A stretch of DNA of 64,000 nucleotides from Tetrahymena thermophila SB210 (Eukaryota; Ciliophora; Oligohymenophorea; Hymenostomatida; Tetrahymenidae): assembly GCF_000189635.1 (NCBI RefSeq), contig NW_002476387.1:682001-746000 (forward strand), read 5' to 3'. The translations under genes were made by a program, and so were the position numbers. Positions 607-56,912 of the stretch are shown one piece after another. The stretch's first letter is position 1. Each line of letters begins with the position of its first letter. The notes under the pieces are model-generated. The model was not told where the DNA came from. It worked only from the letters and a program-made list of their open reading frames with translations, and made no database searches.

Positions 607-3600
607 TCAAATTTTTTATTAATATTTTTTCTAGGTCACATAAATATTTGTATGTTTAATACTGTGCTTACTCTATTCAAAATCAGAGGCAATATCATCT
701 AAATCTTGCTCTTTAATTCTTGAATTATTTTGATTGTATTCTTAAAAGGAATTTTCGAAAAAAGTGATTTGCTGTTAGTCCTAGTTCTTAAACCTTTATT
801 AACTAATACTTAAATTATTAGTCATATTATGATTATCTTATGTAATAAATGTGTTATTTTAGTCAACAAAAATAGAATTGGTTTAAAAAATATCATTGTT
901 TTATTAATTCTCATTTTTTTTATTGTTAAATGATGTTCTAATATGATCCCCAGATTCCCCTTCATCTACATAATTCTAATCCTTTAAATTTATTTCATAA
1001 GAGGATTTTTATTAGCTATGTTCTTTAATCTAGCCTCTTATATTTTTTAACGCTTTGCTATTTTCTTCGTTATCTTCAATTAGAAATTATTTTTAGTTAT
1101 GCGGTATTTATTAATCTGAATCTCTATCTTTATTTTATAAGTGAATAAGTGTTCCTTATTCTTAGTTTTGATGATTATCAATTACAGTGCAAGTAGTTAG
1201 CTTGTGTTGAAGAGAGTTATCCTTAAAATACTCTGTTTATTTTTTACTAATTGAAAATTTATAAGTAAGATTCTTATTTATAGAGCTTATTGATTAACAT
1301 GAACTATTAAATTCTTTGTTAACTTCATTATTTTTCCCTATTTTATCTAACTTTTCAGATGTTTAAGAAGTTCTCTTATTTAGCTGTTGAACCATGAGTG
1401 TTTTTTAGTTAGTGAAGAATTTACTCTTTCTTCTTTCGATAATTTTATTTTGCTTATCTTTTGCTTCTAAATCAATAGCAATATTAGTTTAAGAGATAAG
1501 CTTGGTGTTATTCCTTCCAGTGTATACAATTGATAAATTTCTCTATCTTATACTATTTTGAGTTGCTGAGTTAAATTATTTCATGCAACTCAAATTATCG
1601 TACATTGCCCTAAACATAATTTGCTTTCTTTCTGCTTAACTCATTTGCATCAGCTTTATTTATTATGAGATATTATTTAGAGGAAAGTAAAAATTGAAGT
1701 TGTGCATACAATCAAAATTTTCTTCAAAATAATTATTCTCATCACAATTGTCATCTTAGTCTACTGGAGTCTAAGACGAGACTAGCATTATTTCTTATTT
1801 ATTGTTACTATAGTTGAATTAGTTATTCAACATTTTTACATCATTGCTATTTAACTTAGAAAATCTTCGTTTTTAATCTAATGTTCCTGAACCTGCTAAA
1901 TGAAAACTTGGGATATTTAGAATATTCAAGAATGCTTTGTTATTATTGTCAAGAATTCTAATAGACTTTCTTCTATCAAAGCGTCTAGGTTATTTTGGTA
2001 TATTTTCATCATCGTTTTAATTTCCTCTCTAAATGAATTTCATGAAATTTTCTTAATTTTTTTATGGTAAAAGAGCCGTAATTCTTTTTGTTTACTATCT
2101 AACAACTGGTAATTAGTTAACAATAACTGTTTTTTTCTTTTTGCTATTGCTACTGTTGCTACTATTTAATGTTTCTGTCCTGATGAACTAGTTACTAATA
2201 AATGTAGATTTTTTTTCATTAGTGTTATTCGATAAGTTACTTAAAAAGGTATTTTTCTTTTTGTTATTTGACCTTTCTATGCTATCTGAAGTATTTTATT
2301 TTCTTAAAAAATAATTTTAAAAAAGTTTTACTTTAAATAAAAATATTACTCTAGAATAGAACCAAATCTAGAACCTTTTCTAGCTTTAATAGGTGAATCT
2401 TATCCAGTATCAAGTAGGTAATTTTGACCTCTCTTTTTATTTGCTAAATCTAACTGCAAAGGATAATTACCATTTTCGTTTATTTATAGAGGACTTTCTA
2501 AAAATTACTATTTACCTTTTTAGAATTCAGAGTCTTCATCTTCAGAAGTCTTATTATTAATTTCTTTTTGAGAAGATAATTTTTTTACTTAAACACTATT
2601 ACTAGAAACCTCACTATCAGAGCTATCGCTTTAATCAGTTTTTTCACTTTTTTCTGATATCTAAACCATGGGACTAAGTTCTAAATTTGATTTCCCTTCG
2701 TTTTTTGATTTGACCCTTTAAATATCATCTTCGAATTCTTCTTATTTTTGCATTAACTCCTCATAAAATTAACACAAATATTGGAATTCAATAGAATCTG
2801 ATGAATTGCTGTTATTATTATCATATTCTATTGCTTTTTAGGTTACGACATGTGAGTTTAAAACAGAATTACTTTTTAATATTTTTCTTATATACAGTTT
2901 TCTTTACTCTTAGTTTGGACTCCTCATAAAAGACTATTTAAGGAATGTAAAATTAGGAGTGTAATGAAGGTAGGGACATTAGAGTATTTAGTGTCCTTAA
3001 GATTTGCATGATAAGCATTCAACATTAATAAGTTGATAATTTTCACAGAAAATTAAACTATCTTTGATTGCACAAAATTTTTCATAGTCTTCTTAATGAT
3101 TCACAAGTACTTAAAGAAATTCTGCCCTATTCAGAATTAGAAGAGTAGTAAACTCTCTAGATCTAACACTAGCTCTTCTTGCTTCACCTGTAAAAAAACT
3201 TGTTTCTCCAAACGATTATCCTTTACCTATGGATGAGATAGACTTAACATCTATTTTAAAACACAAAAAAAGATTTTTAAATAGGTTAATTGGGCTTTTT
3301 AAAAATATGACAAAATATTGATTGAAACTTTATTAGAATTTTCTTTAATTATTATATAAAATTAAAAATATTTTTGTTTATTTTAACTTAATTTTTTATT
3401 AAAAGTGGTTTAAAAAAATAAAAACAAAATCAAAAAAATAAAATTTAATAAATTTATTATGAAATATTACTTTATTATGATGTTTCTTTATTTTCGATGT
3501 AAATTTCTACTGACCCTTTTTCAATAAAATATATAGAACAATCGTCTAGCAACCCTTCTAAGCATATTACTTCTTCAGGATAGCACCTGTATTCTTTAAT

Positions 3601-5435
3601 TAAAGGAACTATCTTTTCTTTAATTTCTTCGCTAAAATTGTTCCTAAAAATAGGAGATTTTTTGAGTACTACATTTTTAGACTCCATCAATAAATTCTTT
3701 TTTAAATTATCTGAAAGTATGTTAATAATCTTTTCTTCGCCTTCTTAATCTCTTTCTTTTTCTTCTTTCCAATAATAGTAGAGATATTCTCTGATTTGAT
3801 CCCTGGTCAATTTACCAACATTTTTTCTTTCCATGTAATAATTTATAATTTGCATATTATGTTTTAATTTCACTGAATCCTCGTTAAAGCTTTCTAAAAT
3901 AGCACCAACTGTATTCATAGAATAAGCAAAAACACCACAAGAGATAATCATAATGATGATACATATAGCTTTTTCTATACCTGTAACAGGAATAATATCT
4001 CCGTATCCCACAGTAATCATTGTAACTGTTGTAAAGTAGTATGCATCAATATATAATTAATACCATGAAGATTGATTCCAGACTGGATACTTTGCCCATG
4101 TTTGATATCCATAAAAATCTTCAAATTGAGCTATAATTGCCCAAATGCATGCAATAAAATGCCCTATATATACTATTTTAAAAATGAGCTTCATGAGGGC
4201 AATTATATTTCTTAGCTTTTTAGAAAGTGTTTGGTTTTCTTCTAGTTTATTTACTATGTAACCGATATCAGATAACTTCAAAAAAATGGGGAATAATAAA
4301 AAATCACACCACCTATAAATCCTTGTTACTTCATATTCAGTGTATGTGATTATGAATATATATACCTGTATTTTTAAAAAATTAATAATTTTTGGTAATT
4401 TATGAAATAAATTAAAAAGAAAATAAATTAATTATAAATTTTGAAGGCATATTTAAATAAAAATTTTGAAGGTATTTTTAATTAAAAATATTTGAGTTAT
4501 TTTACTAGAAATGAAAATATTGCAAATAAAGTTGGGATGATTCTGCTTTTAAGGTAGAGATTGATAAGGGTTAGCCTTTTTTTAATTAAAACACCTTTCT
4601 GATAGGTACCAGTATTTAGAGTATATACTAAGTCTATAAACAGGTAAACAGGTACAAAGTAAATCATATATTAGTTGAAGCTTTAGTTTTTATTTTCAGG
4701 AAAAGTAATGTACAAAGGAATTTAAATTGTATAAATGAGTATGAGTATAATATTTATGCAATCCCATATTATTTTATTTAAAGATATTGGATTGATAACT
4801 GGAAATTTTCTATCATAAGATTTAATTAGTCCTTGTAAAAAAGAACACATAACATATTTCAAAAAATGAAATGCTTCTCTTGGTTTTTCTTTTTTTGAAT
4901 TGCGAGAGAGTGTTATTGTCTTTTTCATACCTACATTATTTTAAATTAGGCCAGCTTTTATAAGTACATTTTGAGCTTTTGTAGATATTTTCAAGCTTTC
5001 TTTATCAAAGCTTGAAGACTTATCATCTATCAACTTAAATTGCTTTATGTTTAGATTCTTAAACATAAACGATCTAGTTGAGTTTAAAAGTCGCCTTGCC
5101 ATACTTTTGAACTTAATTTTAAAAAACATATCAGAGAAATTGAGTTTCTAATTTTTTCTTTGCTTTGTTTTACGCATATCGTTTATCATTACTTAATTTA
5201 TTGTCTCTTCTAAGAATAAATTATGAAAGTTAGATTAAGAATCTGATTATTTCATATTTTTGGAGTTGTTTGATAATGAGAGGCGGCTACCTTTCTGATT
5301 ATCGCTCTGCCCAATAATTGGATTCTAACTATCTCCAGACCTTTTTTCCTCATTTTTATTATAAATATTTTCGAGCTAACTTTCATCTCCTCCTTGCAGC
5401 AACAAAATTACTTTTTGCTATTCACTAGATAACAT
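607..5435 (-). CDS. Cyclic-nucleotide-binding-domain K+ channel, copy 1
   Basis: Voltage-gated-type K+ channel of the plasma or ciliary membrane, 1,473 residues in four exons. Introns at 4366-4505, 3251-3470 and 2303-2349 restore one frame from ATG 5435 to TGA 607. In order: polar N-terminus; transmembrane segments from about residue 230; pore with the K+ selectivity filter TVGYGD near residues 428-433; C-linker; and a CNBD from about 536 whose phosphate-binding cassette reads FGETSFFTGEARRAS (about 622-636). The glutamate and arginine that contact the cyclic nucleotide in this family are in place, so ligand binding is plausible. After the CNBD comes a CCHC motif at residues 687-700, then a long Asn/Ser/Gln-rich tail with a conserved YFPLNN element. 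It is a tandem paralogue of the gene at 6030-10386. The gating ligand and voltage dependence cannot be read from sequence. Confidence 0.93.
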
Positions 5436-6029: not shown

Positions 6030-9000
6030 TCATAATTTTGTTTTATTTTGCATCCCAATTAATATATCATTTGTATTAATATTTCTTCTGTTTTGCGAGT
6101 ATTCTGTTTGTGACTCAATTTCTAATTCTAAATGTCTTTTGCTATTACTACCTCTTTATTTATCGTCTTGGCTATATTATCTAAAGCCTTTAAGGCTATT
6201 TTTTATCTATTATTTTTGAAAGCTATTTTTTTAACTAAATACTTATTCCTTATTATTGCTTTCATTTAAGTCAGAATTAAAAGATTCCACTCTTTTCATA
6301 ACTTCATCACTTATAATTTTTTTAATATTTATCTACTAATCTTAAATATTCATACTGCCATCGAAAATGTCATTTTCTTTATCTTAAAATGAATCATCAA
6401 AATTATTGTGAATTATATCGTTGTTTTTTTAATTTAATTTAATATGTTAAAATTCTAAATTTGTTTGATTAAGTATGCTCTCCTTGTAATTTTTATTGGA
6501 TTTTTAATTAATTTATGAAATATCAATTTAATTGTTAAAACTCAAGTTATTTAAATTAAATTAAGGTCCCTTCTTCCCTTAGTGCAAACTTAAAGAATCA
6601 TATTTTTTTTAGCTATCACCTAAAAATAAACTTGATTCTCTTTGGGCTTTAAATTTGTATTTGCTTTAATCCTCTTTGTCATCATTATTATTTTGTTATC
6701 TATTCAAAGTATATAAATTTTGAGAAGAACTTAAAGAATTCCTTTTTCCTTTGTGGAAACTAATAGCCAAAGATTTATTTTTTTTAAGAATATTCATGTT
6801 TTCAATGTGGGCTCTAAGCATCTTTTTTCTTCTTTATTCTATATTTAATCTCATAAGTTTCATTTAATGCTCAAAATTATTTAAAGGAAAGTAGTACTCG
6901 AAATTTTTCATAATATCAAAATCAAATTCCTCATAAAATTCTCTTTAAATGTCTTAATTGCTTTAAATATATTAAACATTATTTGTTTCATCTAAATAAA
7001 AATTTGTATCTTTTGTTTAAAATTAGTTAGATTGGTTTATATTTGAAGTTTATTTACTATCCTACTCAGGAACATATCTTCCTATACTCCTCTTTGATAC
7101 TATGGCTTTTGAGTTGCTTATACTACTCTAATTTTTATACATTAAATTTGATTTTGGCTCTTGCTTTCTATTAAAAGAATTCTTTTTTTGTAACTCATTT
7201 TTAGAAGAAACATTATTTTATATCTTATTTGTAGAAAAGTGCTTCTTAATGCTTGGAGATTATAACTCATGCTATTGAGGTAAAGCATTTGGTGCCATAT
7301 CTTAGAATATTTACAAAATCTTATTAAGCATTGTCTAATATTTTTGTAAGGCTAAACTCAATGGATCTTGCAATTTTTATATCTTTAGCTATGAATTTTT
7401 GTAAGCTGGAAGACATTTCTAAGATACAGCAAATGGGATTTAAGCTTGTATATATTGATTCTGATCTGTGTTTTCCCCTTGATGAATATCATCATAATAT
7501 TGCTTTCCTTTTGGTTTAACAAAATTTTCTTCTATGTGCTGTTTCCTGTTTTCACCTAAAGAACTTTCAATTCTGTAAGAGGAGGATCCTAGCCTAGATT
7601 TTTGTAAATTCAGAGAATCTTCGTCCCTTTAAATAAAAATTAATTTGAACTTATTTGATTGCTTAAAATAAAATATGTTTATACTCTTTGTTTACATAGC
7701 TTGCATGCCTAGATTTTCCTTTATTTACCTAAGAACTGGGTGTTCTGTGTATTTAGTTACCAAATAGATCTATTTCCTCAGATTATTTTGTAGGAGATAT
7801 ATCATTGTACATATTTTTTTATTTTACTTCTGCTATTATCATTTTTTAGCTTAGTTAACTAGTTGCTTATTACAAGGACTGAATATTTGAATCTCTTTTT
7901 TATAAATCTTCTATGTTATTAAATTAACTGAATTAGAATTGATTACCATTTTGATCATCAATAAATTATTTTGTTGAGCTATTTTCATGTTCTGATTTGC
8001 TTTCATCTTCACTTCCGCTTTCTCTTTCGAGATAAGTTTAAAAGTAGTATTCAATTTCCGTATCATATTCTATTAATCTATTAATGAATGTTGAGTTTTT
8101 TTTAACAAGCTATATAGATTTTAGCTTTTCTTTTAGTTTTCTATTTTTAAACACTCTTTCTTAAGGAGGGCTACTCATAAATTGTGCTCTTAATTTTGCA
8201 TGATTAGGTAAAAAGTGGACGTATGGGCATTACAACAATTAGTGATTAAGAGATTAACAAGATAAACACTTTAAATCAATTAGCTAGAAGTCTGAATAAA
8301 TTGAAATATTATCTTTAATGTTACAAAATTATTCAAAGTCTTTCTAGAAATTTTATAACTCGTTCATAAATTCTTGTCTTTTTATTATTTATAATGTAGT
8401 GAATTCTTTTGATTTTACATAAGCTGTCCTTGGCTATCCAGTAAAAAAGCTTATTTCCCCAAACGATTACCCTGCAGTAAGAGTTATTATTTATTTAGGA
8501 TCTATTTTTGGAACTTTAATAAAACATAAAATGATATTAAATAATTATTTACTTGAGGGAGTGCCTTCATAAGCATAACTATCTAAGAGAATATTTACAG
8601 AACCTTTTTCAATAAAATAAATATCGCAATCATCTAGCTCTCCTTATTCACAAATCAGTTGTTATGGTATATAATGGCGTTCTTAAATTAAAGGTACTAT
8701 TTTTTGCTTAAAAGCGTCGCTAAAATTATCTCTAAATATAGCAGTCTATTTTAGAACTATTCCCTTACCTTCCATTAAAAGATTTTAGCGCAAATTTTCA
8801 GGTAAAATTTCAAATATCTGTTCCTCCTATTTGTGATTTTTGTCCCTTTGCTCGCTCCAGTAGTATTCTAGGTACTCTCTTATAGCATTTTAGGTTTTTT
8901 TGCTAACTTTAGTTCTATTCATAAATTAATTTATAATTGACATATTTTATCTGATTTGTGCATGATCTTCATTGAGACTTTGAATAATAGAACCAACTGT

Positions 9001-10386
9001 ATTCATTGAATAACCAAATATGCCACATAAAAATAACATAAATAAAATGCTAACAGTTTTTTCTTCATAAGAGATTGGAATAACATCTCCATACCCAACT
9101 GTAACCATAGTAACAACAGTGAAATAATAAGAATTGATGTAAATTTCATGCCAAGGTGTTACATTGACTTCTGAACTCTTTAACCAAGTTTAAATATTAC
9201 GATGCTACAAAGACTCTGCAAGAAAAATCCATAAGCAAGATAAAATGTGAGCAATCATCATCAGGGTAAAAATTAATTTAATTAGAGTGATGATATTCTT
9301 TTACTTTTTGGTAAAAAATGAAATTTCTTCTAATTTACCAAGTGTATATAAATAGTTTTTAATCTTCCATATAAAACTTAAAAGTAATAGATCATAATAT
9401 CTTGAGAAAGACAAAGAGTCCATCATCTAATATATATAAATCTAAAATAATAGTTAAAAATATGAATTAAAGAATAAATATTCTCTTCTAAAAATATAAA
9501 AACTTACTGAAAAACATAGTATAATAAAGACATTTTTGATAAAGTATATCTCCAAACATCTTTTCATGATTGAAGATCTTTTTACGATCATTTTTCCTTT
9601 ATCATAAAATCCTGTATTAAATTTAAAGAGATAATCTATTAAGACTATAAAAGGAAGTAAGATAATCAGTTTTTAATAGAATTATTCTTTTCTAAAACTT
9701 GTAAATGTCATGTAGATAGGAATTAAAATAAAATATAATGATGTAATAATTAAAATTAGAATATCCCAAACTATTTTCATCAGAGAATTAGGATCAAGCA
9801 CTTTAATAATTGAGTCTAATTGCTTTAAACACTCAGAAAAGAACTAAGTATCAACCAACTATTAATAAATATTTTGATTATGAGTATTCTATCTTAAAAA
9901 AGACTTTTTTAATATAGAAGAATCATTGATATTTTAATTTAATAATTTAGATTTTTGAAGTCTTCTTTTTTCTATTTATCTATTTACAATTAAATTTTAG
10001 TCACAAGAAATATCATCAATCAGTTTAAACTACCGCGATGTTAAATTTTAAAACATTCTTGAGCGAGTTTGGTTTAACAATTTCATCGCATAAAATTTGA
10101 GCTTTATATTAAATATGAGTTGTTCAAACTTTCCTCTTTCTTTTATTTGAATATCTTATTTTTCTCCACTAGCAATAAAAGGAGAGCTATTTTCTAAATG
10201 AGAGTTACATCCTCTAATTATGAAAGACTACATATCAGATTAGTTTTAGATCTTCTAAAATTGATGAACTCGGTGAGATTACCCATCTTTAGATTATATT
10301 ATTGAAGAATTAGGCTATTTATCTCCTCCGAATACTGCACTTTTAAAGCTTTTATTTTTACTAAAATCAGTCTATTTTTCGTTCAT
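6030..10386 (-). CDS. Cyclic-nucleotide-binding-domain K+ channel, copy 2
   Basis: Paralogue of the 607-5435 gene, 1,393 residues. Introns are 9442-9507, 8502-8552 and 7627-7684; the first two sit at the same place and phase as in copy 1. The filter is TVGYGD near residue 405, followed by a C-linker and a CNBD with cassette FGEISFFTGQPRTA (about 603-616). That cassette is closer to the classical pattern than copy 1. A CCHC motif (C668, C671, H676, C681) lies exactly as far from the preceding intron as in copy 1. The tail is Gln/Asn/Ser-rich and shares the YFPLNN element. A channel conducting K+ and modulated by a cyclic nucleotide is the likely role; which nucleotide is unknown. The short plus-strand frame at 7331-7519 is antisense to the tail and not a gene. 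Confidence 0.93.
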
Positions 10387-11311: not shown

Positions 11312-12703
11312 ATGCTTGCTAAACTTTTAGTCAATCCTATCCTTCTTATTAATGCAGGAGGAGAAATGATTTACATTCTTTCATAAAGACTTATTGCTTA
11401 AAAAGTTGATCCTGTTAAGACAGTTTAAGTTCTTAATGACATTTTGAGAAGTTTATTTTCTTAGTAACTTTTTACTGAGCTAATGAAACCATAAAAAGTT
11501 ATGCAAATGTCTTTTTTTAAAACTCTTATTACCAAAATGGTGCATTGTTCTATCATGAAATTAAATGAAGCTTCTATGCAAAAGCTAATTGATTTAATAT
11601 TAATGGATTTTAAGGCTCAAATCGTCAATACTATGCATCCAGCTGAGCTGTATGATGTTACTTAAAACCATTTTAATGGAATAATTAATATAATGAAAAA
11701 TGGTCCTGCTGTAGAGTATCTTATTTATGTTCAAAAGAAATTTGAGGAAATTTACTCTCCAATGCTACCATTTGATTTCCTCTAAATTAAAATAGAACTT
11801 CTTACTTTCCTCCAAGACGTTAAGCAAAAAGTGTATGTTTTCATAGAAGATAAAACATAAAATTAGAATGGTGATATAAGGATTGTAAATAGTTAAACAG
11901 CAGGTCCGCATGTTTAAACTCCTGGTCTTATTACAAAATATGACCAAGAAGGACGTGTTGTTAACAAGAATTAAAAATTTTTAGAGTCTACTGATTAATA
12001 TATATCCAATACCTCTAAGAACTACATAAACAATGAAACAGAATGGGGATAAAATATGTTCCTTCCTAGTCGTCAAAAAAGAGTTGTTAAATTAAGTTAA
12101 CATTCTGTAATTACAACTGAGTCTTCTCAAATTCGTAAAGGCTTCAAAAACGACTCCTAGCTACTCTCAGAATTAAAATTAGATTCTCAGACTGCTACTT
12201 AAAATTTACAAAATTTAGCATCTATGATAAAAGGTGGAAGTGTTAGTTAAGTGGAAGACACGTTTACTTACAATATTTTCAGTAAGCCTACTGTTGAAGT
12301 TAACTATACCAAATAAACCATTGATGAAGATTTCTTTAGTGAAATTATCACTATTGGTAATAATTATTCTATCTTTATTTTGTTCTTATAATATTTATAT
12401 TTTTTAAATATATTTAAAATAGAATTTAAGCATACTTAATATATTTATTTATTTATTTTTATATTTTATCTAATTAGATACTTCAGGAAGTAAATAAAAT
12501 ATGGAGAAATAAATTGCTGATATGTTTGGAGATTTAGGTACGATATCATTAATATTTTTATCATTATTTTTCATATTTTAGACTCAATAATTCCTACATA
12601 TTTTTAATGTATAGATATTAAAGAAAATGCAAAAAGTAAGGCTGAAAAAGAAGAAATAGGAGGAGATGATCTTTTAGATATGATGGACTAATTAGATGAC
12701 TGA
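11312..12703 (+). CDS. OSCP1: OSCP1/NOR1 family protein
   Basis: 397 residues in three exons (introns 12357-12477 and 12538-12614), ending at TGA 12701. The N-terminus has the family pattern, an aliphatic run then NAGGEMIYILSQRL, as in animal OSCP1 (LNLGGEMLYILDQRL). Further along are SIMKLNEASMQKLIDL and an FLQDVKQKVYVFIEDKTQN block matching the family's helical core, then a PGLITKYD motif. The C-terminus is acidic (GDDLLDMMDQLDD). OSCP1 was named organic solute carrier partner 1; in ciliated organisms it is linked to cilia and flagella, but its molecular activity is not established. Length is close to the usual size (about 380-430 residues). Start chosen because homology begins almost at this ATG. 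Confidence 0.92.
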
Positions 12704-32643: not shown

Positions 32644-35600
32644 TCAATTTTTACTATATAATTTAGGAATTAAAGATATATTTGAATAGGTAACAGGATT
32701 AGTTGGTAACATAGCATAGGCTGTTGCAGAGTAATATAACGATCTAATAATATCAACTGATTTTTATGATTTCCAATTGAAGGGGAGATGCAGGATCTCT
32801 TCAATGCAGCTACATCTGTTTAAGTCAAAAGTTAATTCATGGTTTGCAATTGTTTCTTTTTTTTTAATGGAAAATTTAGTGTTGATAGCAAATAACTTAT
32901 TATCTTAATTTCCCAATAAAAAGGTAAAATTTAAGAATTTATTATTAATTTCTTTGCACTAAGATAATCTTATTACTTTCCATACTTTTTATTTCTTATC
33001 AAAAATTTACACAATCAATTTTTCAGATTATCCATCATCTTCATCTTCGCTTTCTTCACTTTGTTCTTCTTTTTCAGATTCTATTTTTTCATCCTCAGTT
33101 CCGAAATCTTCTTAATTTTCATATAATCCTATGTAAAATATATAGCTATTATTTTAGAGAATATAAGACTTTTTACAATCTAAATAAATGCAATCATCAA
33201 TTTTTTCAGCTATTTTTGTTTTTATATTGACACGCTCGCATGGAGATAGTTTATTGTATGGAATATTAGGATCTTTGTAGTCTGTTCCGTTGATTAAATA
33301 AATATATTCCTAATCACATATAATATATCTATTAACTAAATTTTCGTTTATAGTCTCTATTCCTTCATCTTATAAATTGAGCATACTCAACTTATTTTAA
33401 TCAAATCTAACTTAACATTTAAAGACAGAATTATAGAACCTGAAATTAGGATAAGATTACGAGAGTTCTGTGTACTCTTCAAGTGATAGAGATTTGTAAA
33501 ATATGCATACCTTCCTATCCATATTGAAATGGAATGTAAGAAAATGCATTTAATTAGATAGCAGGGAGTCCTTAAAGTCTTCATCGTTAAATCTGATAGT
33601 CAGTTAAAATTTTTGTACAATTTAAAACTGATTTTAAGTGTTATCCCCAGTTAGAATGTTAATTAATTTACTAAAATAATTTTAAACAAGGAAGTATTTT
33701 GGGATTTATTTATCATCTTAAATAAAGTAGTATTCCTATTAAACTGGATTTAAATATGAAGCTTTTCCTGTGTTTTCATGACATCCAGCTAGATTAATTT
33801 AAGATTCAAACTGTAAACCTTTTGATTTAAAATTAATTTTATCAACTAAATCTTTAAAATTCTTGTGTTTAGTATCTTTAACATTTTAGACATCCTATTA
33901 TTCTAACTTATTAATAGGATCTTCCTTATTTTTTATAGATGAGCTTTCATCTAACATTTTTTAACTATCTTCAAGTTAAACTTTTTCTTATTATTTCTCT
34001 TTTTAATGTGCCTTCTAAATTAATGTTTTATCTTCTTATTAAGCAAGAATATTTTTATTTATTTTTGTTTTTTGTTCAATATCCTTAGTCAAGCTATCTT
34101 TTTTTGTTTAATCATCACTTTTAATATTTGAAGCTGTTGATTAGCTATTTTTATTAGTAGGTTAATTCTAATGTTAATTTGAACCTTCGGCAGGCTAAGA
34201 ATTAGCTTATGGCTACTTTTACTATTCATTTGTTTTATTTTAAGTGGCTAAAAATGAAGATTAGTCAGCTTAAAAAGATGACAAAAAGAAAGTTTTAGAG
34301 CTATTGTATTCATTTAGTCTAAGTTCCTGTTGCGTTTCATCTTCTAAGGTAGTTTCAATTCTTATATTCTTTTCTATCATTAATTTTTTGTTTGGATCAA
34401 GAGATTCTACCAAATTTTGAAGCTGTATTTCTATCGTAGTTGTTTTTTCTAAAATTTACTCTATAGCAGAATTGCATTTTCCCAACAAAGCAAACCATTA
34501 AATTTGATTATTTTCGTCATAAAATGCATTTAAATTAACTGCTTAGAAAGGAATGATCTCTGCAAATTTCAAAAATTCTTTTTAGTGCAGTTTCTAATCC
34601 ATATTTGTTAAATTTAATTTTGATGGTATTTCTTTTCTTTTAAGTGTTTAAACTAATTTGAATTGAGATTCTTTAAAGCTGTATTGCTGGAGGTATACTT
34701 AATTAAATCCTCTTAGTATGAGATTTTTATCAATTTCACCTCCTAAAAAGTAAACGTGCTGCTTATAAGTAAAAGTAAAAGGAGAAAAGAGAGGACGGAA
34801 AGTCTTTTAAGATAATTTTTTATAGTTAACTTTTAAAAACAATAACTATTATTATCTATTATCCACAGCATATTCTTCAATAAAATTGCATAAATAGCCG
34901 TTATATGAAATACCACCAAACACATATATTTTTTCAATTTTATCCTCTTTTTAGTAGACGCATACACATCCAGATCTCGGAAGTGAATTAAAAATGAAAT
35001 TTTCTTATGAGTAAGGTTCAAGCAGCTTCAATTACAATTATTAATCGTTTTGATCAGGATAATTACTTATTTGCTTACGTGGTACAATAAATATCATCTT
35101 TGAAAACTCTTTTTACTTCCATGTAGTAGGATTGATAACCTCTCCAAACATTTTAACAATAAATTAATCAGTAATACATAGAGATGAATTGAAAATTTCT
35201 AAATCTAATAAACTCTCTTAATGAATGTATCCTTCAAACTAGCCATTTTAAATAAAGTTACCTACTTAAAACTTATCTGTAACTCCATCTTATGATGATA
35301 ACTAATTTTATAAATTGATTATTGGTCTAGTTGTATCACCTTATTAAGATTTGCCAGTTATTAAATGAAGTGTGTTTTATGATGATACACTACTTAAAGG
35401 CTGGGTGCTCTTCCAATTTACATCTAAAACTTTTTGCACAGAGTATTTAATTTCTTCTTAAATAAATTAATTTTCTCTATACTCTGTCAGAACATAATTT
35501 TTAAAGTGCTTACCTCTCTAAACATTAAAAAAGTAAATTGCTATTTTACTACTACTTTGATCTCTATTTTAGCTGTCGTAGTCATAATCAATCACATATT

Positions 35601-38524
35601 AACTATGTTCTGTGTAGAAGAATTTCAACTCTTAATCTACTCTATCTTATAGATTTAAGATATGGAGGTAAATTTTTTTTTTACGTCTCAAATCATAAAC
35701 CCAATTATTTAGGAGGGCTTGAGTGTACCTTTTAAGCATAATTTTTACTTTTAATTGGTCACTATAGAGCTTATCGAATTCATTTCGTTTTAACTCACTT
35801 ACCAACGTTTAAGCATACATTTCAGAATTTTAAGGATATTTTTGCATAACATTTATTATCATAGATTCAGAATTAGCCTTTATTTCTTCTTCTATCCCTT
35901 CGCCTTTTGGAACCTCAGTGTATTTATTTTGTTTTGAAAATTTCTATAGGAGATTCACTTTTTCACCGTTTGAGTGAGATACAAAATCAATAATGTGCTT
36001 AATTTGTTTAATCTTATTCATATAATCATGAATTTTTATTTGCTGAAGGGTCCATTTTACCTTTTAAACTCCTTTCAGCTATTCTTAGTTGGAATATGAT
36101 CTTCTAGGCATAACTGATCTTCTTATTTATTCTGTAATACTACTCATAAATTAGACTTATACATGGATAGCTGTTTTTAAATTTTACTTCAATATAATCT
36201 TTCTATAATTAATAGTTTCGAATAGACTAAAAAATATTGAATTTAACTGTTCTTGTATATTTTGGTATAAATTTTTGTTTATTAAAAGAAGTTTTTGAAC
36301 TAAATACTTTCTTTTTTCATCTTAACTAAAATTATTACAATAGAATTTATCATAACAATATGTTAAATATTTTTAATACGCAGTTTGTGATGGCTCCGTT
36401 TTCATCCAACTTGCTAATTTATTTATACTAGTTACTGTTTACTATGTAGAGTCACTTGTATAAAAAACAAATTTTTTTTTTTATTAATTTTTGAATGGAA
36501 TAGTTATATTATCAGTTTGAGATTCTTAAATAATATTATTATTATTTTAAACTAAAACCTCACTTTTATCAAATAAATTAGCTTTCTAATTTTAATTATA
36601 TGAGCTTGTCTTATCAATATCTTTTGCGTCTTCACTAGAATTTTAATATACGCCATCTTTTTCTTCAATTTTTGATAGATCTTTTACTTTTGAAATAGAA
36701 AGGTAATTGGTTGTATTATCAAAGGAATCAAGCCCTTCAAATTTTTATTAAGTTACACCTACTTCTTATTAAGAGCTAAGCTACTCTAATTGTTTTGGGA
36801 AAAGGTGATTTTCGTCTTTAGTATTTGCTACAAATAATACATGATTATTAGAAATTTAAGAAAGCATGTAACTGAAATATCCTAAAACATCTGGTTTTAA
36901 ATTATAATAGTGGTTATGAGATTTTGTTAAAGAAAAATCATATGAAAAAATTATATAATTTGGTTTGTGATGTCTTACAAGCCTCAAAACCTATTCAAAA
37001 AGGTACAAAAACTCGCTTTAACCAATAATTTTAGGGCATTTTTACTCATTTTTAATGAAAAGATCATCAAGTTGAGCATTTGATCCATCTTATTTGTTAA
37101 GATACTCATTAATTGCAATCTCAAAACAATTTGAGTTTGGCTCAAGTGTTTCATTACCTTCCATTTTTAGAGAAGTATCAGAGGATTATTAATTATCTTC
37201 ACTCTTAGTATTTTCTTAATGGTACATACTAATATACTAAATGTTGGTTAATTAATCTTTTTTTTGATTAAATTATGAATTCTAGAAAGCATTATAAAAA
37301 ATTAAATGTTTATTTAATTCTTATTTTTATAAGCCTAATTAAATAAAAGACAATTTAGGAACATCATTCACAGTTCCTCCATTCTTTTCTAAAACTCTCA
37401 TATTTGCATAGCATACACTTAGCACAGCAGGATTAAGGTTTCTTAAATTATAGTAATCCAAAACTTAAATTATATTTTAAAAAGAGCTATCAGTAACCTC
37501 ATCTATTATTTCACCAATAGAAAAAATCTATTTTTTAATTGGATGCTTTAAAATGTATTCTTAAGTATTGGCATTTATATTTTTTAAAGATGGGTTCTCA
37601 TCAAAAAGATTTTCTTTTAATTCATCAAAGATTTTTGGAGCATTTGCAATGTGATCCTATAAAGCTTTCATGAAAGCTCCCATTCTTTCATTATACTTGG
37701 TATATTAATATGGAGTCCTTCTAAATTATGTTCCTAATCTATATTATTATTTGTACAAATTATTTATTTATTTGTTATTAAAGAGAAAAACTATTTTGTA
37801 AAGATTTAATTTGAATCTACTCAAACTAAGATTAAAAGATGATAATTAATTAATTTGTCTCTAATTTTATTAAATAATTAATTAATTAAATGATTTGATT
37901 TTCATTTCAAATAAAATAAAAATTTCTCTATTTATATTTCTTTCTCTAATATTTGTAATTTATGTACTAGACAAAATCATTGAATTCTATTTTAAAAAAT
38001 ATTTTTTATACGATGTATTTTCTACTTTTCTTCTCACTAACAAATTATATTTCTAAAACTATGTTTCTGTTTATTTATATGAAATTTCTAATTATTTATT
38101 TGAATAAAACAAAGGGAATTTATCGTTTTCATTTATTATGATGTGATAATTATTTTTTTTAAATAAATAAATAAATTATTTTTATGTTATGTTTATATTA
38201 AATATTAGCTTACGAAGGAAATAATTCTAGCTATTATATAATTATATGATTTATATAATGTTTAATTAATGTACTGTCTTCTCTTTTAGCTAAATAGTCA
38301 TTACATACTAGTAATTTCGGCTTCTTCTAATACACTTATGTTTTATTTTAATTATTTTATTAATTGCTTTTTCTTTCTTCAGAAGTTCCGTTTGCACTTC
38401 CTGCACCTAAGCCCTGATTATTTGTATTTGCTTGAGGATTATATGCGGATTTGATAATTTCTGTCCTTTTTGATTCACGAAACGGCAACAGAATTTAAGT
38501 ATAATTTTACAGACTAATACTCAT
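32644..38524 (-). CDS. Large protein: degenerate class-II HDAC-like domain plus kelch-like repeats
   Basis: 1,798 residues, one intron (37791-38274), so the second exon is an open frame over 5 kb. Residues about 70-400 follow the order of a class-II histone deacetylase: a KPKLLVCNDYLA strand, FRRTPYQYTKYNERMGAFM, LNKHLIFYNAFQNSQFNQ where active enzymes have LIVDWDVHHGNGTQ, NIQYISMYHQEN, EFLYLFEQVLRLVRHHKPNY, then IIFSYDFS where active enzymes have VSAGFDA, and a closing NNHVLFVANT strand. The zinc-binding Asp and His and the HH charge-relay pair appear lost, so catalysis is unlikely. After a long coiled linker come kelch-like blades at about 1035-1130 (KIYVFGGIS, HVYFLGGEID) and again near the C-terminus. 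An acidic run lies near 1660. Scaffold or reader role is inference. Confidence 0.8.
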
Positions 38525-39053: not shown

Positions 39054-40016
39054 ATGGAAGAGGAACAAAAGCCATTTGTTTTTACACCTGCAGAAGGAGG
39101 AGAAGCTTCAATTAGAGGATTCAAAGGAAAAGCCAGGGCTGAATTCAGTAATGGTGACGTTTATGACGGAGAGTATGAAAATGGATTAAAGCATGGAAAA
39201 GGTGTTTATGAATATGTATCAAAGCAAGAAGGTGTACCCAATAATGTTTATAAGGGAACATTTGAAAATAATCTTAAAAACGGTATTGGTGTTATGACAT
39301 ACTACCTTCCAGAAGAGAAAAAGGAAGAATATTATGGTAAAAATCTTAATTATTTTGATAAATTACTACGTTTCAAAACAATTTTTTACTTTTTTGAAAA
39401 TTATGAAACTTAATTTGCTATCTATTTAGGTTAGTGGAAGAATGATAAAAAACATGGCGAAGGAAGATATACCTATGCTAACGGAGACGTTTACAGTGGG
39501 TAATGGTAAAATGGAAAAAAGCACGGAGAAGGTACTTATGTCTTTGCAAAAACTTAAATGAGAGTATAATAATTATTTAAGAAGTAATAAAAAAAAGCTC
39601 ATATTTTCTTTATAAATTAGTTTAAAGGTGAATTCCATGAAAATAAGTTATTAAATGGATAGTGGATTTATCCAAATGGTACAATTTATCGTGGTAAATT
39701 CGAAAACAATAAACCTATTGGAGAGGGTAAAATAAATAACTATAATTTTTTTATTAAAATAAATTTAAAAAATGAAAGTATGCATAACTATTATAAAATA
39801 ATTAATAGGTCTTTGGACTTTTGCAAATCACAATGAAGTCTTTGGCCAATATACTCAAACTAAAATTCCTCTTAAAGATGATGAAGTAAATAATATATTT
39901 AAATATATAAACATAACTGTTCTAATTTAAAATACAAATTTCATTTTTAGAAAAACAGAAATTTACTCAATATAAAACTCGAATGGACCTCAGAGATTCC
40001 AGAACAAATTGTTTGA
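39054..40016 (+). CDS. RSPH1: Radial spoke head MORN protein, RSP1/RSPH1 homologue
   Basis: 221 residues, five exons; introns 39337-39429, 39564-39620, 39727-39808 and 39886-39950. It is a chain of MORN repeats: KARAEFSNGDVYDGEYENG, KHGKGVYEY, KHGEGRYTYANGDVYSGQW, KHGEGTYVF, YPNGTIYRGKFENNKPIGEG. The first repeat matches RSPH1 (RARLPNGDTYEGSYEFG). The C-terminal order of a KFENNKPIGEG repeat, a GQYTQT segment and a final LEWTSEIP also parallels RSPH1 (GKFLNKNPVGPG, HGEYRLT, PKWKATQI). It would sit in the radial spoke head of the axoneme and help transmit mechanochemical signals to dynein. Another axonemal MORN protein is possible. The start is the first ATG of the frame; a 5' exon cannot be excluded. 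Confidence 0.87.
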
Positions 40017-51737: not shown

Positions 51738-54700
51738 TCACTCAAATGTTTTTCTTATTGCTTGACTACGTGCTATAACTTATTTTACTCTTTCATTGAG
51801 ATCTATGCTAGGTTGATAAGATTAAAGTTAATTAGTTTGTGGTTCTTAGTTAGTTTGATTTACAATTTTAGAATTATTTTATTAATTACCATTTAGTAAG
51901 ATATTTAATTTAATAGATGAAGGTTTTGATTAACTATTTGGAGATAAGTTTGTTTTACTCCTATCTATTTATATTTCTAATTTATTTTGGTTTTATTATT
52001 GAGAAGTATCTAATAAACAATTTTGTTGGAGACTTTATCTATTTTCATTTTAATTAAATTATAAGGATATTTACTAAGATTATTATTGCTATTGCTTTTG
52101 TTGAGAAAGAGGTTTATTTATTAATCCAATTTGTTAATTTTCTTAAAAGTTAGACAAATTTGAACTTTGTAAGACTCTCTTATTATTAATTAACTCGGTA
52201 TCAGCATTAATTTACTATTAAATTTCATTTTAAGAAGTGTCTATTACAACAGACTAAGATTAAATATTAGAATTACCTAACAAACTCACTCTATTTATTA
52301 TTGCTTATTTAGCTGCTGTACTAAAAATCTAACTATTAGAAGTTTGTACCTCTGAATATCTTGCATTGTTATTTGTTGGTACTGGAGAAAGAAAATATTA
52401 ATTTTATTGATTTGGCATTTGAGAGTAAGAAACATTAGCTCTTTTAGGCTATTCGAAAAATTCAATATCTTTATCTTAGTTTTGCTAATTAGGAGTTTTA
52501 AATGCTGTAGGGCTAATTACTTGAGTTTTAACTAAATTATTTTCTAGTTAATCAGGAGATTATTATTCATTTAGATTAAAATTTGTGTTAGATTAAATTT
52601 AATTAATATATTCTTTACCACTTTAGTTTTATTAATTAGGTAATTGTAATGGTATTCTTTACTAACTATATGAGCTCTGTTTATTTTGATAAATTCCCTA
52701 ATTAATTAAGCCACTATGATTAGGTAAAATTTAATTTTAATATTCTGCTTATTGTTCTTAAATTTATGCAGTGCTTATTAACTCAAAAGGACTTCTTTCA
52801 ATGCTATTCTAAAGCAAGTGCTCATTATTTTAATTTATCATGGGATTAGCAGTATTAGGTGCTTACTAAAGGATAATGTGAGGATGTTGTTATTTTTGAA
52901 TATAGATTTTCTTTTAGTTATTGTTTTCTTCCAAGAAATTTTAAGAACTTCTATTTATATTATCAAGTAGCTACTAGTTAGATGTATATTATACAAAGGA
53001 TTAGCTTCTTTGAGGATGACTTCTATTACTCTATGCTTATGATGGCTGAATGAGCTAATTATTTCCTATGTTAAGAGATTGAATTGCATGGTTATCATTA
53101 TCTGATCTTTATCCATTAAATAAATAAGGTTTTGATTGAGCATTAAGTAATAAAATTTTTCCATTATTTTCCCTTTAAGGAGAGGCCTAGGCTGAAGCAA
53201 CAAACTAAGGTTAAGGTAATAGTGCCTATGGTTGATTTAAAATTTTTATATAACTAGAATATGAATTATTAGTATTGGATGAGTTTTGATTAAAACTTTA
53301 TATCTAGCTTTGTTACCTTGGGTGCTTAAATTTTAACACATTTTAACTCTGAAGTATCATACTCGTAGAAGTGTTAGGATCATTTTCAGGAGCAACTATC
53401 TCGATGTCTTAGGTATCGAAATTAGAAGTGTTTGGTTAATTATATTAGTATTGGTAAGGGTGTTATTTTTATAAAATTTACATATTTTTTTAACCTGTAA
53501 ATTCTTTTTAATTTTACTATTTTGCATCAATTAGCTGATTTTAGTTTGCTTCACTTCCAAATTATTTTTAATACAAAGCCTATATTTCTTACTGCTATTC
53601 TTAAAGATTTCTGAGAATTTGAGATGGATTATGTTCAAGTTTTGGTGTTGATTCTCTTGGGTTAGATCCATTTAATAGACTGACTGAATGTTATCTAGAC
53701 TGATTTGCAATCATAGACTTATGTAGCTACTATTTTTGAGATTCTTATGGCTTATTAGGTTATTCTTATTCTGTTTCTGACTACTCGTAATTTGGATTAC
53801 TTGTTAAAATTAATTAACTTTAGCCTGTTTCTTTTGTTGTAGTTCTTTCTTTTGAATTAACTCTCTCTTATGAGTATAAACTTGTAGACCTTTCTTTTGA
53901 TTAAATTTAGTTAAGATTCAAAGGAAGGTTCAGTCTTTAGTTTTATAGATTTGATAATTGCTATTGCTATATGCTTTAATTTTAGATTATTTTAGATTAG
54001 TTTTATAATTAATTAGTCTCTTATTATGATTATTATTATAATAATTATTTTTAATAAGTTGTCCTTTAATCAGCATTTGGCTACTAAAATCTTTATTAAA
54101 TCATTTGACTCTAAAACTGCGGTTGTGATTATCCATTAGTTTTACCAACTCTATTCTACATACTTTACTATTAATATTGTTATTATTATTGTTAATCGCC
54201 AGGTAAATTATTTTATGAGTAGACTTGTTAGTACATGTTATTTAGTTATACTCTACTTTGTTATGCAGGAGCTTATTACTAAACCTAAGAGTTTTTCATA
54301 GAATAACTATATAATTATGATTATTGTTATTATTGCTACTAGAAAGGTTGTTAAACCTAAATTTGATAGCTATTCTAAATATTGCTTTATTTTAATACGT
54401 TGCTTTAAGGAACTTAGATTATTTGGGAATTATTTTGATTAGGATTTTATTATACTTAGTTCTAATTTAAAGATGTCCTAAAATGAGCACTGTCTTATAC
54501 ATCGATGCTGTTAGGAAATTGCAAGCTCAAATCATTGTCTTTAACTTGAAGCTGAGATATTTTTTAAAAGATTTGCCACTCTTAATCTTATTGATCATCA
54601 ATTATGTATTGATTTTAAGACTATATATGAAGATCCTACTAATACATTTTTTAATTCTAATTATTCGTTTAAAGCTATTTCTAATTTATGTTATTCATAG

Positions 54701-55820
54701 CTCTTGGCTCTCCTCCAAATTAAGGAACTGCATTCTTTTGGTTATTCTTAACATTTGATTATTATTAATTTGCTATAGTAGTGTTTTGTAAATGTGCAGG
54801 TAAAGTAATAGTGTTATCATTTTGTAGTTTATTCCAAAGAGAGAGAGGATCTAAGCGTTTTCTGACATCGTAATCAAGCATAAGCTTCAAGTAGTAGTAA
54901 AATTAAGGACTATAGTAATTCTATATGAATTAGAGTCTTTCATTTATTACAGGAGCTAATATTGAATAATTTTCATCGTAACACTCTTAAGATAGTCTTA
55001 AGCTAGCAGCTTCAAGTAGAGTCATGCCCAAACAGAATATATCAGCCTTGTATATCATTTCATTTGAAGTAAAAACGTTTGAACCAGACCTCATTAAGGT
55101 AATTTACTCAGGAGAAAGATAGCTGAACTTTTTACCACTTTCTGCTAATCTCATTCCAATACATCTACCGCACAAAAAATCTCTATCATAAATAGCAAAA
55201 TTGTTTCCAGCTGTATTAAAATAAATGCTTGAAGGGTGTATATCCCCATGAGGTATATTTTATCTCTACAAAAAGTTAAGAATGTTTAAGACACTCTTCG
55301 CTAAATTGAGTAAATCATCTTCTGGAAAGAGTCTGTTGGAATCCAATCTTTCACTTATAAGGGCCTCTAAAGAAAAGGTATTATACTCATACATTAAATG
55401 TAAAGTACTTTCATTAATTTGAGCTTCAGTATGTGCTTGAAGTAAACTGCTGTTGTTATTTCCACTGCTTAAACTCTTCTCTTATAATTGAGATTGCTAT
55501 TATGGAGGTGGAGGTAAAGTATCTATTCCTAAACAACTAATCAAATTTATATGCTAAAGTTTGACTCTTTCATTAAATTATATTTTGCTTTCTTAATTAT
55601 AGAATTAAGAAGCTTGATAATCACTCTTGCTAACTGGAACTGAAAACCAAATTTCATTATTCTTTTTTTAGTAAAGACGACAATTAGCTTGAATACCTTC
55701 TATATTCTGAAATTAAATGAAAGTTAGTCCGTCGCTTGAGGTAAATTTTTACAAAGATCTGTGAGGATCTTTTTAAATATTATTGGTATTTGTTGCTTAA
55801 CTAGCAGTTACGTTACCCAT
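51738..55820 (-). CDS. Protein pseudokinase with ~1,000-residue Gln/Asn-rich tail
   Basis: 1,360 residues without introns, ATG 55820 to TGA 51738. The kinase-like domain spans about residues 30-350. Its N-lobe lacks a recognisable glycine loop and a VAIK lysine (strand 3 reads EIWFSVPVS). The catalytic loop is HGDIHPSSI (191-199) instead of HRDLKPENI: Asp193 is kept, but the Lys and Asn are replaced. DFG becomes DRD (212-214). SPEQ in the APE position, KADIFCLGMTLLEAA (helix F Asp) and DVRKRLD (final Arg) are retained, so the fold is probably intact but catalysis doubtful. From about 360 to the end it is Gln/Asn/Ser/Pro-rich with polyQ runs and no domain. The N-terminus MGNVTAS has Gly2 but not the usual Ser/Thr at position 6, so myristoylation is possible but weak. 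Pseudo-enzymatic scaffold is inferred. Confidence 0.82.
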
Positions 55821-56912
55821 TATTATATTTTCCTAATAAAATTAAAAAATTTTAACCCTATTTACACTGCTCTCTTTCTAATTTATTTATGTTTTGTTTT
55901 AAAAATATTGGATCTTTAAACCTAAAAAAAATTTCTGTTTATTTGAACCTCTTAAGATTTCCTTAAATTTTTTCTAAATTATGCAAATTTTTGTTTGTTC
56001 GTTAATAATAAACCTCATCCGAAGCAATCAAACATTTTAAATTACATAACAATAAAAAAAAAATTCAGATTAGTTGTAAAGACCTTTTAATTTTGTTCAT
56101 CCATTTCCTTTTTGATGTTAATGATCGTTACTTATTGTTATTTACCAAGTTAAAAATAACTATCTTATTTAACTTTAAACTAAAAAAGAAAAACTTTCAA
56201 ATATTATGAAAACAAACAAACATAAACAACAAACACATCGATTTTAAATTTATTTTTTTAAAATAAAAAAATATTTAGAATTTTTGAAATCATTTTATTT
56301 TATTTTTTGAATAAATAAATTTATAAAAATTTATATAAAAGTAAATTAAAAAATGTTGTAATATTTATTTAATTTGAATTAACTACAATAATCAAACTAA
56401 TTTCAGTAGAATATTTATGAAAGCCTTAGAACAAATTATTGTAAGAGAATCTATGATATAATTTGTTTAATAGTAAATAATATACAAATAGAAATTTACA
56501 TGTAATTGATTAGATAGATTATATGTTAATTATTAGTAAAATATTTTTCTACATTAATATTAAATTTTATATTCTTTTTTAATGTTTCTTCTAGCTTTAT
56601 TAAGAAAGATTGAGAAAGAGAGATAGATAGATAAAGATGGGTAAGTAGTTAAGATAAATAGATATTTGATTAGTTAACTAGCTAGCTAGCTATTTAGATG
56701 CTTTAGTATTTCTCTAAAAAACTGAGATTAATATATTTTGATTGATTGATTGATATAATTACTATTTCATTTTATATACTAGTAACTTAATGAAAAGTAC
56801 TTTTAATTATTTGACTTAGATTACTTCTAGATAAAAGTAAAATCAGTAAGCAAAAGCAAATTGCTAATTTTATTATTTTTATGTGATTTATAGTTTAATT
56901 TCATATTTTATC
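55821..56912. other. AT-rich spacer with tetranucleotide repeats
   Basis: 1.09 kb between two minus-strand genes. It contains GATA-type and GCTA/GATT-type tetranucleotide runs at about 56620-56755. No gene recognised. Confidence 0.5.
56620..56755. repeat. Cluster of degenerate tetranucleotide microsatellites
   Basis: Short runs of agat/gata, then gctagctagcta, then gattgattgatt within about 135 bp. Simple-sequence DNA with no coding meaning seen. Confidence 0.6.

Follow-up and report, generated by a model that had tools for sequence, protein, structure and literature searches.

A fast-evolving Tetrahymena protein with a kelch-like second half and one segment suggestive of a class II deacetylase core

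In PMC5454378 and PMC11532494, the C-terminal domain of the histone deacetylase (HDAC) HDAC10, called PsiDAC, is described as an inactive deacetylase-type domain. PMC7339932 assigns three class I, two class II and two HDAC-like genes to Tetrahymena thermophila, locates Thd2 in the micronucleus and indicates that histone deacetylation differs between the germline and the somatic nucleus. Here, we consider a gene of T. thermophila SB210 for which a first-pass annotation had proposed a catalytically degenerate HDAC-like domain fused to kelch-like repeats. This gene lies at 32644..38524, on the minus strand as do all its features given below, of a stretch of 64,000 nucleotides (contig NW_002476387.1, positions 682,001 to 746,000), hereafter the window, and encodes 1,779 amino acids in two exons as modelled. 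Its product is a fast-evolving ciliate protein without detected relative and with a kelch-like second half, and one segment of its N-terminal third is suggestive of HDAC ancestry.

The reality of the gene is supported both by its coding frame and by its composition. Indeed, the window has a guanine plus cytosine (GC) content of approximately 22% and contains no open reading frame (ORF) of at least 150 residues with genetic code table 11, versus 96 with table 6, the ciliate code in which TAA and TAG specify Gln and which was used for translation. The ends given by the first-pass annotation are correct: the gene runs from an ATG at 38524-38522 to a TGA at 32646-32644, and exon 2 (32644..37733) is open by table 6 up to this TGA, i.e. 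over some 1,700 codons, where chance alone would predict about 30 TGA. Exon 1 (38275..38524; MSISLQNY...KPKLLVCNDYLAKRED) encodes an N/Q/S-rich leader with a possible first strand, and its GC content is 30% versus 15% for intron 1 (37734..38274; 541 nucleotides, GT..AG, GTACAT...GATTAG). The long frame is restored by two of the six AG acceptors tested between 37800 and 37690, of which we retained the downstream one, since use of the other would insert 19 AT-rich residues. Exact intron positions are those that we infer from the model, and further in-frame introns are possible in exon 2 (37371/37362-37282 and 36379). One stretch of this exon, at 36203-36379 (residues approx. 536-600), combines a low GC content with a negative coding score, and three in-frame GTA..YAG segments of 54, 153 and 177 nucleotides start at 36379, so an unrecognised intron may lie there.

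When the assembly (101 Mb, 445 contigs) was searched, the only match among the best candidates scored was the gene itself, both with the N-terminal domain (E value ≤0.001) and with the long chain (E≤1). Neither did the viral contigs scanned for relatives yield a match, nor the NCBIfam scan anything below E 0.049.

The HDAC-like signal comes from residues 320-386 (36826..37026). Using the 407-residue N-terminus as an hhalign query, these 67 residues aligned with columns 216-288 of an HDAC profile built from 36 sequences (34 bacterial and the two class II sequences of the same genome, including the near-duplicates L019/L023 and L020/L022), with a score of 32.7, a P-value of 0.00088 and a probability of 23%; the sub-piece 301-407 alone gave a P-value of 0.00013 and a probability of 54%. 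In this register, the LVLVSAGFD strand is matched by IIFSYDFS, and the strand preceding LEGGY by HVLFVA. SYDFS (residues 347-351; 36931..36945) thus lies in the register of the AGFD site, as had been proposed at first pass, and the position of the Asp ligand therefore reads Ser: the signal, weak as it is, falls exactly there.

The score of 32.7 was compared with several controls. It was reached by none of 400 shuffles (maximum 26.6), and by none of 198 pieces of table-6 ORFs from the window (maximum 22.5), these pieces being mostly not genes and excluding the ORFs that contain the query. Among 220 bacterial ORFs, drawn at random from a longer list after removal of those with a D.D.H[HQ]G motif, only three reached it, all from loci fetched as HDACs (L026, L027 and L051), the remaining 217 scoring at most 27.7, a value found in a DUF815 locus (L058). 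Six further segments of 407 residues, taken from the same protein, did not exceed 18.2. Moreover, six class II profiles agree on the register of residues 320-386, with scores ranging from 25.9 to 32.7; for three of these, namely the profile re-aligned (31.9), supplemented with HDAC6 (31.2) or restricted to eukaryotic sequences (28.5), none of 150 shuffles each reached the score. For the C-terminal piece with the AGFD region, the score was equalled by 2 of 200 shuffles in one set-up and by 0 of 400 in the region-by-region one, restricted to columns 210-310. Finally, a panel comparing the segment with 17 family profiles placed HDAC first (27.6), closely followed by DUF815 (25.5), and all others scored at most 19.9. 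Arginase, considered as the family of the N-terminal domain, was rejected on the same panel, where the cluster headed by an arginase locus obtained 13.8.

A different explanation retains a divergent kelch-type protein but denies its N-terminal alpha/beta domain any kinship with HDACs: the match over 67 residues would reflect a generic helix-strand-helix-strand likeness, and the rest would have been filled in by eye. We regard this as a strong contender, if short of probable. The controls above count against it, as the full-profile score was unreached by any shuffle or non-HDAC protein and 15 of the 17 family profiles score 20 or less on the segment. However, several observations weigh in its favour or against an HDAC origin. 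First, the claimed domain (residues 68-400; 36784..38323, a span that includes intron 1) extends over approximately 330 residues, of which the HDAC signal spans 67. Residues 61-318 align at chance level, 35 of 150 shuffles being equally good, and the same holds region by region: 29 of 400 shuffles for the N-terminus, 219 for the next region, 112 for the DWD region and 367 for the one that follows. The N-terminal best match ends where expected, the NERMGAFMKAL helix falling on the PERL helix, and is non-significant, while a forced global alignment to HDAC is meaningless. The earlier proposal that residues 70-400 retain the succession of strands and helices seen in class II enzymes is not confirmed, as only residues 320-386 align significantly. 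Second, Pfam's Hist_deacetyl was unmatched at E≤10 by hmmscan, with the long chain as with the joined N-terminal 407 residues; a scan of the genome with this family (PF00850) at E≤1 misses the gene; and phmmer against the PDB matched no HDAC, the best hit being the unrelated TM1410 (E 0.48). Third, the hhalign probability of 23% for the whole query, or 54% for the sub-piece, is modest. The bacteria-only (25.9) and own-genome-only (26.5) profiles, which have no controls of their own, do not rise above the highest values that controls gave with the full profile (26.6 for shuffles, 27.7 for real ORFs), and a single class I HDAC sequence of the genome gives no in-register match to residues 320-386.

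Fold prediction neither establishes nor refutes an arginase/HDAC fold. In AlphaFold2 runs made from single sequences, i.e. without relatives, the exon 2 part of the N-terminal domain was modelled with low confidence (predicted local distance difference test score, pLDDT, 40.2; predicted template modelling score, pTM, 0.31). Residues ~248-403 of this model show a strand-strand-helix-strand-helix-strand-helix succession over NIQYIS, FEIAINE, YIIFSYD and HVLFVAN, which we take to be the order of the C-terminal half of HDACs. Weighing against the HDAC reading, the first two strands, upstream of residue 320, have a pLDDT of only ~28-38, versus 43-56 for the rest, and a Foldseek search with the low-confidence model returned no HDAC among the best 50 of 1,231 rows. 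The best match was RsbS (E 0.005), and mixed alpha/beta proteins appear among the rows listed, which would fit an unrelated domain.

Another candidate for the same stretch is a degenerate P-loop ATPase similar to DUF815 (PF05673), a family of AAA type; YIIFSYDFS would then be a Walker B motif and VLFVANTKDEN a sensor 1 motif. Indeed, two pieces containing this stretch have DUF815 as their best Pfam match (E 0.023 and 0.0041), and its hhalign score of 25.1-25.5 comes close to the HDAC score in the panel, both of which also detract from the HDAC reading. However, the match stays below the Pfam cut-off (16.7 of 23.8 bits), neither the long chain nor the joined 407 residues yields it at E≤10, one of 300 shuffles scores higher with the DUF815 profile (28.5), and HDAC outscores DUF815 in matched profile tests. 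Furthermore, a pattern scan found no GxxxxGK[ST], the signature of Walker A, in the chain. A P-loop ATPase thus appears improbable.

Returning to the HDAC reading, the question arises as to what would be left of the active site. By the same pattern scan, the 1,779 residues contain none of PGHH, GFC, FNN, DxDxH, HHG, AGFD, GGY and LEGG, and the sole HH of the chain is at residue 338. The RPPGHH/GFCFFNN stretch of HDACs has no counterpart, 21 residues lying between KNGGT and HLIFY. With no HDAC catalytic motif in the chain, the domain would be catalytically dead if it is HDAC-derived, and an active HDAC was rejected on the same ground. Recognisable paralogy with the HDACs of the genome was rejected as well, since their PF00850 places lie on six other contigs. 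The first-pass annotation had read the DWDVHHG site as YNAFQNS (residues 230-236; 37276..37296). This string is present in frame, but its pairing is poor: the ten-column diagonal that places HLIFYNAFQN on VLIVDWDLHH scores -4.2 bits, and YNAFQNS as a degenerate DWDVHHG is therefore a guess by position.

More fundamentally, YNAFQ may be a translated intron, in which case the gene model would be wrong in this critical stretch and the first ‘degenerate site’ would not be protein at all, a possibility compatible with any of the readings above. Residues 216-246 have a GC content of 13-17% and a negative coding score, and two in-frame introns, of 90 or 81 nucleotides, could run from GTGAAT (37371) or GTTCCT (37362) to CTAG (37282), the longer candidate (37371-37282) having 18.9% GC. 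Both would lack the GTA start, which by eye also seems missing from 2 (L014 and L012) of the 10 introns inspected in HDAC genes of the genome. On the other side, the other 8 are GTA-compatible (two of them doubtfully), and the YNAFQNS site lies within no in-frame GTA..YAG segment with a GC content of 17% or less, the three found all starting from 36379. A GTATGC donor at 37416 would cut out coding-like sequence (24% GC). We consider such an intron rather unlikely and keep YNAFQNS as protein, with a doubt of the same size.

The second half of the chain is likely to contain kelch repeats, although they score below threshold. The best kelch-like blade (34855..34980) corresponds to positions 1-39 of the Kelch_4 profile and contains IYVFGG (residue 1019), and a second GG motif, VYFLGG (residues 1077-1082; 34738..34755), is spanned by a weak PF24681 match. 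The blades announced at first pass are thus present as two GG motifs in frame, whereas Kelch_4 remains sub-threshold in Pfam: it reached 21.4 bits (E 0.00024), for a cut-off of 21.6, when the sub-piece 34344-35241 was scanned, and 16.4 bits with the long chain. Weak matches to PF24681 and PF24981 fall at the same place, and blades other than IYVFGG and VYFLGG are hard to discern. Against a kelch assignment, no Kelch profile match exceeds its curated cut-off, and the window's contig is in neither of the listings of genome places for Kelch_4 (at least 83 at E≤0.01) and PF24681 (at least 104 at E≤0.001), which represent many clearer kelch places. The region from residue 916 to the end was also modelled with low confidence (pLDDT 31.8). 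As described earlier, the same chain carries a charged linker, rich in Gln, Asn and Lys (residues ~1235-1386; 33826..34281), and an acidic run (residues ~1624-1652; 33028..33114).

Taken together, these data suggest the following picture. The N-terminal third would be a domain of alpha/beta type, with one part resembling the class II HDAC core in its C-terminal half; if so, this domain would have lost the whole HH-bearing segment together with its metal ligands, and would persist as a structural or interaction module. The C-terminal half would most likely be a divergent kelch-type beta-propeller, interrupted by the long charged linker and binding partner proteins. This large ciliate protein, with no detectable paralogue in its own genome, would then act as a non-enzymatic scaffold. 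The propeller fold, the scaffold function and HDAC ancestry of the entire N-terminal domain are inferred, the last being suggested by a single segment. The notion of a degenerate deacetylase is accordingly only partly upheld: a weak signal at the AGFD site and an absence of catalytic motifs agree with it, but the signal is confined to 67 of approximately 330 residues and the HH segment is missing. Overall, a non-enzymatic, HDAC-derived scaffold with a divergent kelch-type propeller seems to us quite possible, yet short of probable. The more specific proposal of a pseudo-deacetylase devoid of the HH-bearing segment and fused to a kelch-type propeller, as a putative scaffold or acyl-lysine reader alongside some seven classical HDAC genes in the genome, is on the doubtful side.

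Should HDAC ancestry be true, the protein would represent a pseudoenzyme: a core of deacetylase type would have shed its catalytic segment and been reused beside a kelch-type interaction module, and the ciliate setting would matter, as germline and somatic nuclei differ in histone deacetylation. Should it be false, this would be one more fast-evolving kelch-like ciliate protein.

The surroundings of the gene are as follows. A MORN-repeat gene (39054-39836; four stretches, E 1.7e-26) adjoins it divergently. Farther away, the window contains an OSCP1-family gene (11312-12520; PF10188, E 3.8e-57), and, at 7567-10386 and 2040-3674, an ion-channel ORF with Ion_trans_2 and cNMP_binding and, near it on the same strand, a second cNMP_binding ORF. 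A further ORF of 1,426 residues by table 6 (51738-56018), including 199 reassigned stop codons, has no Pfam match at E≤0.01.

Elsewhere in the genome, PF00850 matched 16 places, spread over six contigs (C188, C247, C162, C271, C78 and C428), which we read as about seven HDAC genes. Two of these are tandem class I genes (L003 and L002; C188, ~87760-91158), whose catalytic cores are very alike by eye and whose corresponding introns seemingly have a GTA start in one gene and not in the other. Another one is a divergent HDAC (L007; C78:123204-123710) with DLDAHQGNG instead of DxDxHHGxG, which may correspond to the HDAC11-like gene that has been reported in Tetrahymena.

How, then, does the protein compare with described systems? 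In the open-access literature searched (ciliate HDAC and kelch proteins, pseudo-deacetylases, Tetrahymena HDACs), no HDAC–kelch fusion is described, which is no proof of its absence from print. The count of about seven HDAC genes is close to the 3 + 2 + 2 given in PMC7339932. The genome's own class II HDACs (C162 and C271), combined as a two-sequence profile, align residues 320-386 in the same register (the score of 26.5 given above); they keep RPPGHH, GFCFFNN, DxDxHHG and AGFD, whereas the kelch-like protein has none of these. DUF815 matches the same stretch locally, but with no Walker A, below threshold and more weakly than HDAC. With Kelch-repeat proteins (Kelch_4, PF24681), the protein shares at least two GG blades and their surrounding strand pattern, and differs in scores that fall under the curated cut-offs and in a linker of ~150 residues that interrupts the region. 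Finally, the likeness to PsiDAC of HDAC10 would lie in a deacetylase-type domain without activity, here judged from motifs, and the difference in what accompanies it: PsiDAC is preceded by an active domain on its own chain, whereas here no active domain was found and it is a kelch-like region that follows.

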